Positions 3,911 through 7,432 of a DNA stretch of 64,000 nt are shown here, piece by piece. The notes beneath the pieces are model-generated. The model was not told the DNA's origin and searched no databases. It saw nothing but the letters and a program-made list of their open reading frames with translations. The first letter of the stretch is position 1. Every line of letters begins with the position of its first letter. The translations under genes and the position numbers were made by a program. Origin of the DNA: Enterobacter cancerogenus (GTDB lineage Bacteria > Pseudomonadota > Gammaproteobacteria > Enterobacterales > Enterobacteriaceae); NCBI RefSeq assembly GCF_019047785.1, contig NZ_CP077290.1, positions 1,984,001 to 2,048,000 of the forward strand. The letters are read 5' to 3'.

Positions 3911-4007
3911 GCGGAATCGGGGGAGTTGTGGCGGGTGGCGCTACGCTGACCCGCCCTACGATCCTGTAGGCCGGATAAGCGAAGCGTCATCCGGCATTAG
4001 CGGGCAA
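3911..4007. repeat. REP/BIME-type palindromes between deoC and deoA
   Basis: Two palindromic units occupy the gap. One is GCGGGTGGCGCTACGCTGACCCGC (about 3930-3953). The other is a classical REP (GTAGGCCGGATAAGCG ... CGTCATCCGGC, about 3966-3997). REP pairs in operons are known to affect 3'-to-5' mRNA decay and DNA gyrase binding. Any role here is inference. Confidence 0.8.
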
Positions 4008-4787
4008 TCAGTAGCTGCTTGCGCTCTTACCGTCGCCGTGACCCAGCGCTTTCAGCAGGCTTGCCAGCAGGCTGGATGCGCCGAAACGGTAGTGACGGGA
4101 ATCCGCCCACTCTGCGCCAAACAGTTCGTCGGCAATCGCCAGAAACTGCTGCGCGTCTTCCGCGGTACGCACGCCGCCGGCCGGTTTAAAGCCCACGGTT
4201 TTGGAGACGCCCATATCACGAATGACTTCCATCATGATGCGCGCGCTTTCCGGCGTGGCGTTTACCGGCACTTTACCGGTAGAGGTTTTGATGAAATCCG
4301 CACCCGCGTTGATCGCGATTTCAGACGCTTTGCGGATCAGGGTTTCTTCTTTCAGTTCGCCGGTTTCGATGATCACTTTAAGCAACACATTTGCCGCGGC
4401 ACAGGCGTCTTTACAGGCTTTCACCAGGTCAAAACCCACCTGCTCGTTGCCGGCAATCAGCGCGCGATACGGGAAGACCACGTCCACTTCATCCGCACCG
4501 TAAGCAATCGCCGCGCGGGTTTCTGCCAGCGCAATCTCGATATCGTCGTTGCCGTGCGGGAAGTTAGTCACGGTTGCAATACGCACGTCCGGCGTGCCCT
4601 GCTCTTTCAGCGTTTTGCGGGCAATCGGGATAAAGCGCGGGTAGATACAGATGGCAGCGGTGTTACCGACGGGCGTTTTCGCCTGATGGCACAGGGCGAT
4701 GACTTTTTCATTGGTGTCGTCATCGTTCAGGGTGGTCAGGTCCATCAGTTTCAACGCGCGCAGGCTGCTTGCAGTTAAATCGGTCAT
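4008..4787 (-). CDS. deoC: Deoxyribose-phosphate aldolase DeoC
   Basis: 259 residues from ATG 4787, exactly the E. coli length. A longer frame upstream lacks support, and GGAG stands correctly before this ATG. It splits 2-deoxyribose-5-phosphate into glyceraldehyde-3-phosphate and acetaldehyde. The Schiff-base lysine is Lys167 in [10 protein letters not shown], and the second essential lysine is in [10 protein letters not shown]. First gene of deoCABD, directly under the deoP2 control region, with the distal promoter deoP1 expected upstream inside yjjI. Confidence 0.98.
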
Positions 4788-4832: not shown

Positions 4833-4848
4833 TGTGAGTATTCTAACA
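4833..4848 (-). promoter_or_regulatory. DeoR operator O2 at deoP2
   Basis: Read on the minus strand the site is TGTTAGAATACTCACA, close to the 16-bp DeoR palindrome (TGTTAGAATTCTAACA) and overlapping the TAGAAT-like -10 element of deoP2. Its centre (4840.5) lies about 50 bp upstream of the deoC start. Confidence 0.85.
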
Positions 4849-4865
4849 TTCACCCGCATTCACAC

Positions 4866-4934
4866 TTCGACATTCATCACAGTTAATGAAAACTGCGTAC
4901 AAATTTGCATTACTGTAATGAGATCAACATCAAA
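4866..4934 (-). promoter_or_regulatory. deoP2 activator region: two CRP sites with a CytR-type spacer
   Basis: On the minus strand the proximal site is TGTGATGAATGTCGAA (4866-4881). The distal site is TTTGA-TGTTGA-TCTCA (4919-4934). The centres are 53 bp apart, the same spacing as the E. coli deoP2 pair at -40.5 and -93.5. In E. coli the region between them binds CytR with CRP. The intervening sequence (TGCAAATTTGTACGCAG) is similar to the E. coli spacer. This predicts cAMP-CRP activation and CytR repression of deoCABD. Confidence 0.8.
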
Positions 4935-5049
4935 TTTTAGCAGGCCAACCGCGGGTTAAATCAGCGATCACCCCTGTGGGATCAAAAGCCCCGGCGGGAC
5001 GCCTTTCTACAATTTCGTCATCATTCACCGATGACTCAAGGAAGCGCCT

Positions 5050-6597
5050 ATGTCCTCCTCTCGCCCCGACGCCCTGCAACAGCGTTGCCAGCACATTGTG
5101 ACCAGCCCGACGTTAACACCGGAGCAAAAACGGCATTTTCTGGCGCTGGAAGCGGAGAACAATCTGCCCTACCCGGCGCTTCCTTCGGCGGCCCGCGCCG
5201 CGCTGGACGAAGGCGTTATCTGCGATATGTTCGAGGGACACGCCCCTTACAAACCGCGCTACGTGCTGCCGGACTACGCAAAATTCCTGGCGAACGGTTC
5301 AGACTGGCTGGAGCTGGAAGGGGCAAACGATCTGGATGATGCCCTCTCGCTGCTTACCATTCTCTATCACCATGTTCCGTCCGTGACATCGATGCCGGTC
5401 TATCTGGGCCAGCTTGATGCCCTACTCGATCCCTATGTTAAAATTCTAACACAGGATGAAATCGATAGCCGAATAAAACGTTTCTGGCGCTACCTCGACA
5501 GAACCCTGCCCGATGCCTTTATGCATGCAAACATTGGCCCGGCAGATAGCCCCATCACCCGCGCCATTCTGCGTGCCGATGCGGAGTTGAAGCAGGTTGC
5601 ACCAAACCTGACCTTTATCTACGACCCCGACGTCACCCCTGACGATCTGCTGCTGAGCGTGGCGAAAAATATCTGTGAATGCAGTAAGCCGCATATTTCC
5701 AATGGCCCGCTGAATGATAAAATTTTCACAAAAGGCCGCTATGGCGTGGTGAGCTGTTACAACTCTCTGCCGCTGGCGGGCGGCGGCAGCACGCTGGTGC
5801 GCCTCAATCTGAAAGCCATTGCCGAACGTAGCGCCTCGCTGGACGATTTCTTCACCCGCCAGCTGCCGCACTACTGCCAGCAGCAGATTGCCATCATCGA
5901 TGCACGCTGCGATTTCCTGTATGAACAGTCCGGCTTCTTTGAGAATAGCTTCCTCGTCCAGGAGGGGCTGATTGATGCCGGGCGTTTTGTGCCGATGTTT
6001 GGCATGTACGGCCTGGCAGAAGCCGTTAACGCGCTCTGCGAGAAAGAAGGGATGACAGGTCGCTACGGTAAGGACGATGAGGCCAACGCGCTGGGGTATC
6101 GCATCAGCGAACAGCTGGCGACGTTCGTTGAAAACACGCCGGTGAAGCACGGCTGGAAGCAGCGGGCGATGCTCCACGCGCAGTCGGGGATCAGCTCCGA
6201 TACGGGCACTACGCCGGGGGCACGTCTGCCTTACGGCGACGAGCCCGATCCGATCGGCCATCTGCTGGCCGTCGCCCCGCACCACCGTTATTACCACTCC
6301 GGTATCAGCGACATCCTCACCCTGGACGAGACCGTAAAAGCCAATCCACAGGCGGTGGTGCAACTTTGTCTCGGGGCATTCAGGGCCGGTATGCGTGAGT
6401 TCACCGCTAACGTGGCGGGAAACGATCTGGTGCGCGTCACCGGCTATATGGTGCGGCTGTCTGATCTGGAGAAGTACCGCGAAGCCGGATCGCGCAGCAA
6501 CACCACGTGGCTGGGTGAGGAGGCCGCGCGCAACACCCGAATCCTTGAACGTCAGCCACGCGTAATTAGCCATGAACAGCAGATGCGCTTTAGTTAG
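5050..6597 (+). CDS. yjjI: YjjI-family glycyl radical enzyme, function unknown
   Basis: 515 residues, the normal size for YjjI. A C-terminal glycyl radical loop RVTGYMVRL places the radical at Gly465, and Cys236 ([15 protein letters not shown]) is a candidate catalytic cysteine. This is a small glycyl radical enzyme compared with pyruvate formate-lyase, and its substrate is not established. It is divergent from deoCABD and overlaps yjjW by 26 bp, so translation is probably coupled. AAGGAAG precedes the ATG. Two DeoR-type operators lie inside the coding sequence (5436-5451, 5715-5730). A role in anaerobic metabolism linked to deoxyribose or acetaldehyde is only inferred from the neighbours. 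Confidence 0.95.
5436..5451. promoter_or_regulatory. DeoR operator O1 (deoP1), inside yjjI
   Basis: TGTTAAAATTCTAACA differs at one position from the ideal DeoR palindrome. Its centre (5443.5) is 603 bp from the O2 centre. In E. coli deoP1 and deoP2 are about 600 bp apart. It would serve the distal promoter of the deo operon although it lies in the coding sequence of the divergent gene. Confidence 0.85.
5715..5730. promoter_or_regulatory. Candidate distal DeoR operator OE, inside yjjI
   Basis: TGATAAAATTTTCACA matches the DeoR palindrome at 12 of 16 positions and lies 279 bp beyond O1 (centre to centre). E. coli has a third, weaker operator (OE) about 280 bp upstream of O1. The spacing match is the main support, since the sequence alone would be weak. 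Confidence 0.6.
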
Positions 6598-7432
6598 TCA
6601 GATTATCCCCTTCTCCTGCGTGGACGGGCCGGGCAGCCGCCTGGCACTGTTCCTGCAGGGCTGTAACCTGCGCTGCAAAACCTGCCACAACCCGTGGACT
6701 ATCGGGCGCTGCAACGACTGCGGCGACTGCGTTCCCCACTGTCCGCACGATGCGCTGAATATTCAGGCGGGCCGCGTCTGGTGGCAGGAAAGCCACTGTC
6801 AGCAGTGCGATACCTGCCTGCACCTGTGCCAGCAGCAGGCCACACCGATGGCGCAGCGCTACAGCGTGGAGGAGATCCTCGCGCAGATCCGCAAAGCCGC
6901 ACCGTTTATTGAGGGGATCACCGTGAGCGGGGGTGAAGCGACAACCCAACTGCCGTTTTTGATCGCTCTGTTCTCAGCGATCAAGGCCGATCCCGCGCTG
7001 CGCCACTTAACCTGCCTGGTGGACAGCAACGGCCTGCTAAGCGAAACCGGCTGGCAAAAGCTGCTGCCGGTTTTCGATGGCGCTATGGTGGATTTAAAAG
7101 CCTGGGGCAACGAGCATCACCGCTTTTTGACCGGGCGCGACAATCCGCAGATCAAACAGAGCATTCGCTGGCTGGCGGATCATCACCGTCTGGCCGAACT
7201 GCGGCTGCTGTTGATCCCGGATCGCTGTGATTATCTGGCGCATCTCACCCCGCTGTCGGCATTTATTCGCCAGCTGGGGAATATTCCGGTACGCATCAAC
7301 GCGTTTCATGCGCACGGCGTGTATGGAGAGGCGGCGTCATGGCGCAGCGCCACGCCGGAGGACGTCGAGCCGCTGGCCGTGGCCCTGGAAAAACGGCAGA
7401 TTACCGTTATCCGCCCGGCGCGCTATCTATAG
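6572..7432 (+). CDS. yjjW: YjjW-family glycyl radical enzyme activase (radical SAM)
   Basis: 286 residues. The radical SAM cluster motif CNLRCKTC (Cys31, 35, 38) follows [14 protein letters not shown] ferredoxin-like insert with two four-cysteine groups ([11 protein letters not shown] and [11 protein letters not shown], roughly residues 48-90) is typical of the larger glycyl radical activases. VSGGEATTQ is the SAM-binding GGE motif. It should install the glycyl radical on YjjI, whose 3' end it overlaps. Its end overlaps that of convergent yjjV by 6 bp. Confidence 0.95.

Follow-up and report, generated by a model that had tools for sequence, protein, structure and literature searches.

The divergent genes deoC and yjjI enclose and carry three DeoR-type sites in this Enterobacter-type region, and two of the sites lie within the coding sequence of yjjI. 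This arrangement raises the question of what holds the sites in place: the repression of the deo genes, the YjjI protein, or the control of yjjI itself. The answer favored here, with a probability of roughly 0.86, is that the deo operators O2, O1, and OE have been kept through the yjjI reading frame, where they would have frozen codons and probably set residues. The comparison behind this reading covers the match of the sites to those of E. coli, their conservation, the constraint on codons, a residue shift, persistence in a decayed yjjI, and co-occurrence with DeoR. The DeoR binding, looping, and repression that enter the explanation are carried over from published E. coli work.

Three DeoR-type sites and their E. 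coli counterparts

The features of interest in the window, i.e., the whole 64-kb stretch of DNA that was analyzed, are listed below with the basis of each assignment.

4008..4787, minus strand: deoC, which encodes deoxyribose-phosphate aldolase and heads the deo operon (NCBIfam TIGR00126, open reading frame)
4833..4848, minus strand: O2, DeoR-type operator (two mismatches to TGTTAGAATTCTAACA; K-12 counterpart 599 bp from O1)
5050..6597, plus strand: yjjI, YjjI-family glycyl radical enzyme, host of O1 and OE (NCBIfam TIGR04040, Pfam PF11230)
5436..5451, minus strand: O1, DeoR-type operator, from the third base of yjjI codon 129 to codon 134 (one mismatch to TGTTAGAATTCTAACA)
5464..5484, minus strand: constrained block spanning yjjI codons 139-145, which on the deo strand precede the P1 -10-like sequence (synonymous windows, rare codons)
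5715..5730, minus strand: OE, auxiliary DeoR-type operator, yjjI codons 222 (third base) to 227 (conservation, K-12 identity)
6572..7432, plus strand: yjjW, activase of YjjI, next after yjjI (NCBIfam TIGR04041)

Mismatches were scored against the 16-bp palindrome TGTTAGAATTCTAACA, taken as the DeoR ideal. O2 reads TGTGAGTATTCTAACA (TGTTAGAATACTCACA on the minus strand) and lies 45 bp upstream of the deoC ATG; O1 reads TGTTAAAATTCTAACA, and OE, which differs from the ideal at four positions, reads TGATAAAATTTTCACA. The sequence-only reading had described three DeoR-type operators here, two of them inside the divergent gene. Their positions and letters were confirmed, with centers 603 bp (O2-O1) and 279 bp (O1-OE) apart, and both O1 and OE fall within yjjI. 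The motif TAGAAT, similar to a -10 element, occurs on the minus strand at 4845-4840 within O2 and at 5448-5443 within O1. By analogy with E. coli, these are assigned to the deo promoters P2 and P1, respectively, and the site at 5715 corresponds to the E. coli operator called OE. On its plus strand OE reads TGATAAAAT, with a promoter-like match directed into yjjI at 5696-5723 (one found, 0.8 expected by shuffling). Between deoA and deoC, positions 3962-4000 hold a REP-like sequence.

O2 and O1 are the only sites with at most three mismatches in the window (0.15 expected; one of 100 shuffles reaches two), and the only two with at most two mismatches in the whole 4.82-Mb genome. At four mismatches or fewer, four sites including O1, O2, and OE are found in the window, vs 1.2 +/- 1.2 in 60 shuffles, so OE by itself is not clearly more than chance. 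It is taken as real because of its position, which is the same in K-12, and its conservation: the 16-mer is identical in 85 of 101 non-redundant yjjI genes linked to deoC and differs by one base in the other 16. Among the same 101 genes, O1 has no mismatch in 68, one in 31, and two in 2. An O2 with at most four mismatches accompanies 98 of them, the search being confined to the interval between deoC and yjjI; it is missing from three, and O2 candidates are weak (four to five mismatches) in Edwardsiella and some other basal linked genomes. The Enterobacter genome also encodes DeoR, with 81% identity to E. coli DeoR over 252 amino acids.

In E. coli K-12, O2 lies upstream of deoC, a perfect O1 at nucleotide 387 of yjjI, and OE at nucleotide 666, so that O1 and OE are likewise inside yjjI. 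The suggested correspondence to the E. coli operators at about 600 and 280 bp held well: the K-12 spacings are 599 and 279 bp, and the OE 16-mer is the same in both. Judged by sequence, the set found here is the known deo set. Separated operators, DeoR looping, and natural action over distances up to ~900 bp are described for E. coli in two papers (PMC4217526, PMC5326754). By extension, DeoR would bind O2, O1, and OE and loop between them, and the loops would repress two deo promoters, P2 at O2 and P1 at O1, the latter antisense within yjjI.

Codons and residues of YjjI at the operators

If the operators are maintained within a gene, the codons that compose them should serve two purposes. The relatives of yjjI used to examine this were the best 80 of 289 confirmed among the named genomes, plus further genomes, and close relatives are therefore over-represented. 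Genes with a deoC start at most 700 bp upstream were called linked, and the 126 linked genes were reduced to the 101 non-redundant ones at 98.5% nucleotide identity. One gene (L135), in which both sites are present and O1 is perfect, was excluded from codon counts because of a deletion that precedes O1 in yjjI. A parsimony count on a tree gave the number of synonymous changes, and the expectation was the average over other positions of the gene with the same amino acid.

Two synonymous changes were found in codons 130-134 of O1 vs 99.4 expected, and two in codons 223-227 of OE vs 74.7 expected. When the 495 five-codon windows are ranked, each of the lowest eight overlaps O1 or OE, and the ratio of observed to expected changes is 1.01 in yjjI outside O1, OE, and the block upstream of P1. 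The accompanying Poisson values assume independent sites and are descriptive only. These counts lend strong support to the proposal of the sequence-only reading that yjjI codons at 5436-5451 and 5715-5730 are under dual constraint. Codon choice is unusual as well. The Leu codon of O1 is CTA in 99 of 101 genes (3.6% use elsewhere in the same genes) and its Thr codon is ACA in all 101 (10.2% elsewhere). The synonymous codons would have been frozen by selection to keep DeoR binding and, in the case of O1, to keep the -10 of P1 as well.

Change within O1 is most frequent at position 6, the second base of codon 131, which has undergone 19 protein-altering changes (AGA in 69 genes, AAA in 23, GGA in 6, ATA in 3), and its mirror, position 11, a single one of a silent kind (CTA to TTA). 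The preserved half is TGTTAGAAT on the deo strand, the common form in O2 also; this half is probably constrained by the promoter -10 in addition to the operator. Just upstream of this promoter, the 25 lowest windows include those that begin at codons 138-143, and in codons 139-145 the rare codons CGA and ATA are kept in 80 and 92 of the 101 genes, respectively. This block is possibly a promoter upstream element.

Other features of the gene were noted. The most constrained stretch after the operators is codons 296-300 (5935-5949), where no operator is known and where 14 changes were counted vs 72 expected; codons 296 and 297 are TTC in 98 and TTT in 92 of 101 genes. One of the 101 genes (L033, genome G084) has an in-frame TAA at codon 135, right after O1, in a frame that is otherwise full-length. 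A binding-site table from ChIP-seq in ETEC places a CRP site inside yjjI (PMC4287617), and its K-12 position, nucleotides 324-339 of yjjI, has no match among the 25 lowest synonymous windows.

The encoded residues were compared with those of 50 unlinked YjjI proteins fetched from the wider order and class (91 of 345 genomes had matches), unlinked meaning that a deoC match was absent within the fetched few kb. Nine of the 50 are only ~40% identical, with a gap at residues 132-133. I132, I225, and T227 are present in all 101 linked proteins and in none of the 50 unlinked ones. In the latter, position 132 holds D, E, G, N, S, T, or K and is gapped in the nine, position 225 holds A, D, T, S, or V, and position 227 holds G, D, H, N, or E. 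Gly occupies position 131 in 33 of the 50 and in six of the 101 linked proteins (L112, L113, L128, L129, L131, L134), the remaining linked proteins having Arg, Lys, or rarely Ile. The six make up the two most basal groups in the tree, with the sequence TGTTGGAATTCTAACA or TGTTGGAATTTTAACA. This distribution suggests a stepwise path in which a change of Gly to Arg (AGA) at 131 would have finished the palindrome. The 16-mers of O1 and OE are missing from all 50 unlinked genes, the fewest mismatches being four at O1 and eight at OE. Of the 199 positions invariant in linked proteins, the 8 operator positions have a median of 9 changes among the unlinked homologues and the other 191 a median of 1 (Mann-Whitney p 4e-6). 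This rank test replaced an earlier one that had put 5 of the 8 operator codons among the top 16 (p 9e-5) but hinged on the breaking of ties and on a cut chosen afterwards.

Linked proteins form one clade (support 0.914) with no unlinked member inside it, all 50 falling outside. The shift in residues and rates is therefore a single origin and not a repeated gain; no reversal was seen. We infer that selection on the operators caused the shift, and drift or a protein-level change on the branch of the linked clade may also have done so. Operator maintenance has probably fixed some YjjI amino acids, which goes beyond the dual use of codons proposed from the sequence alone. In the ancestor of the deo-linked YjjI, operator selection would probably have replaced amino acids along two paths, from V-G-[polar]-L through V-G-I-L-T to V-[R/K]-I-L-T at O1 and from [A/D/T/S/V]-[F/Y/L]-[G/D] to I-F-T at OE. 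It is reasonably likely that these residues were imposed stepwise by the DNA and not by the protein, i.e., a polar residue 132 to Ile, A/D/T/S/V at 225 to Ile, and G/D at 227 to Thr, with Gly131 to Arg or Lys later.

The same stretches might be conserved for the protein or its translation, through residues, codon choice, slow codons, or mRNA structure, with the likeness to operators incidental. Some residues do matter, since position 226 admits F, Y, or L across the 50 unlinked homologues and position 133 is L or I wherever these have a residue, and the constraint at codons 296-300, although milder, arises where no operator is known. The limited choice at F226 may account for the lasting imperfection of OE in its right half. 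Against this account stand the lack of I132, I225, and T227 in every unlinked homologue, where the codons at these positions vary, the 19 protein-altering changes in O1 vs one at the silent mirror position, and the survival of the sites in a decayed yjjI (L138, below). Conservation for the protein or its translation, with mere likeness to operators, is extremely improbable. A search by sequence for a solved YjjI structure gave none, with one chance-like hit (E 0.027). A prediction from 33 fairly close sequences (mean pLDDT 67.8) places residues 131-134 in a turn between predicted helices 119-130 and 135-152 (pLDDT 89 for the block 131-140). The OE residues lie in a segment with pLDDT below 50, and no structural argument is therefore made for OE.

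Sites without an intact yjjI, and the spacing

Decayed copies of yjjI offer a view of the sites when the host gene has degenerated. In L138 (genome G265, C2:213756-222282), a remnant with stop codons is 57% identical outside the sites to the nearest intact yjjI and retains O2, O1, and OE at 265 and 278 bp. O1 and OE together keep 28 of 32 bases vs 57% outside (p 2e-4). A further locus (L142), with a short piece of yjjI, retains O1 at 199 bp from O2 but lacks OE; its 15 of 16 O1 bases vs 71% identity outside (p 0.03) are weak evidence. Three other copies (L139-L141) keep all 32 site bases, yet they are 90-92% identical outside the sites, so that their decay is too recent to judge retention; in L139, which keeps O1 and OE, O2 and O1 are 434 bp apart. 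L140 was dropped as a case of retention in a dead gene, with deoC and deoR broken in the same genome.

The sites also occur where yjjI is not adjacent to deoC. Sixty such loci were taken from the upper part of the list, 191 of 295 genomes having a deoC match; one of the loci (L206) has yjjI elsewhere in its genome. Within 450 bp upstream of deoC, these loci hold 80 sites with at most three mismatches (0.06 expected), and the next 1.8 kb hold none. At least one site is present in 51 of the 60 and at least two in 29. Sites and regulator tend to occur together. In 50 of the 51 site-bearing genomes, DeoR has a match with 55% identity or more (one match partial), the exception, G109, having none at the cut-off. 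Among the nine loci without a site, DeoR above 50% identity is missing in five and present at 58-72% in four. A close DeoR is also missing in the five unlinked genomes checked (G082, G200, G275, G461, G546): three of them, of Proteus type, have a best DeoR of 39-40% identity, and G461 and G546 have none at the cut-off. In these genomes, the effect of lost linkage is therefore confounded with that of a missing close DeoR.

Sites kept beside a strongly decayed yjjI and absent from yjjI genes away from deoC are argued to be kept for deo, and they appear, from these comparisons, to serve deo. Another view is that they are retained mainly to control yjjI, by a DeoR roadblock or by antisense transcription from P1, and tie an anaerobic enzyme to the supply of deoxynucleosides. 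Both sites are indeed inside yjjI, and P1 would run against its first ~390 bases. The gene is listed in the FNR regulon in one study (PMC3688515), and for an FNR-activated gene several inputs are plausible. This view is very unlikely given that the sites persist in the decayed gene of L138 and upstream of deoC without an adjacent yjjI, and are missing from 50 unlinked yjjI genes. DeoR control of yjjI, which the sequence-only reading had raised, is at most a possibility.

A different doubt concerns OE, which could be another site, such as a sense-strand promoter or the target of another regulator, with O1 and O2 alone being DeoR operators. It has four mismatches, is near-invariant with no drift toward the ideal and a constant C at position 13, and its plus strand was picked up in the promoter scan mentioned above. 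OE nevertheless shares the fate of O1, both being retained in linked genes and lost in unlinked ones, and the decayed copy in L138 has two mismatches to the DeoR ideal vs four in the intact yjjI of the window. In E. coli, three genetically separated operator elements are reportedly required, according to the title of Valentin-Hansen 1986. A separate identity for OE is distinctly unlikely, and its reading as the third deo operator is preferred.

The spacing was also supposed to be kept. It is, at about 600 bp, as long as yjjI is intact: O2 and O1 are 566-626 bp apart in the 98 linked genes with an O2 of at most four mismatches and 596-604 bp apart in 73 of these, and the 279 bp between O1 and OE follow from the lack of any indel in codons 129-227 (0 of 101). 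As a constraint in its own right, it did not hold up. The distance is 107-290 bp in the 29 two-site loci without adjacent yjjI, and 199, 265, and 434 bp beside three degenerate copies (L142, L138, and L139). The sequences thus suggest that the ~600 bp are largely a by-product of the intact gene; in the favored reading the O2-O1 distance would be a consequence of yjjI and not strictly required.

Selection of the distances themselves, ~600 and 279 bp, for loop geometry would agree with the narrow range in those 73 genes and with the recurrence of 175-178 bp in 15 of the 29 two-site loci (among L147-L186), which hints at a preferred distance or reflects shared ancestry. The wide span of distances with yjjI, without it, and beside degenerate copies speaks against such selection, which seems unlikely. 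Helically phased spacing was considered and set aside, being weakly coherent (mean resultant 0.42-0.57, for a hand-entered list with ancestry uncontrolled).

Meaning and comparison with known systems

The operators themselves were already known; the measured dual coding and the probable replacement of residues did not turn up in the literature searched. The deo operators are a classic case of DNA looping, and their coexistence with the host gene yjjI seems unexamined in the literature searched, which left most subscription papers outside. In that same literature, yjjI and deoC appear together in PMC4287617 and PMC6389913, but no paper was found on yjjI together with DeoR, and nothing on intragenic operators with synonymous constraint or on duons in E. 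coli or bacteria. The locus offers a bacterial operator set with measurable dual coding, for which unlinked homologues and a decayed copy act as natural controls. If the favored reading is true, some "conserved" residues of YjjI would be regulatory relics and not active-site or family signatures, and the locus would be a clean test of regulatory DNA dictating protein sequence. The variable distances suggest that deo repression in this family is not designed around a fixed ~600 bp.

The closest known system is the deoCABD operon of E. coli K-12 with DeoR, which has the same three sites in the same places, near-equal spacing, and an identical OE. The present case differs in the genus and in one base each of O1 and O2, and the evidence for dual coding is what this analysis adds to the E. 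coli system. Intragenic auxiliary operators are also known from lac O2 in lacZ and gal OI in galE, which resemble deo O1 and OE as looping operators within a reading frame. There, the host gene belongs to the regulated operon, whereas the host of deo O1 and OE is the divergent neighbor yjjI; unlike lac O2 and gal OI, the deo sites appear to have altered residues of the host gene. Dual-use codons have been described in eukaryotes as duons, which likewise serve the protein and the binding of a transcription factor together. The deo case differs from these in that the operators are defined and belong to a single bacterial regulator, and in that unlinked homologues and a decayed host gene are available for comparison as natural controls.
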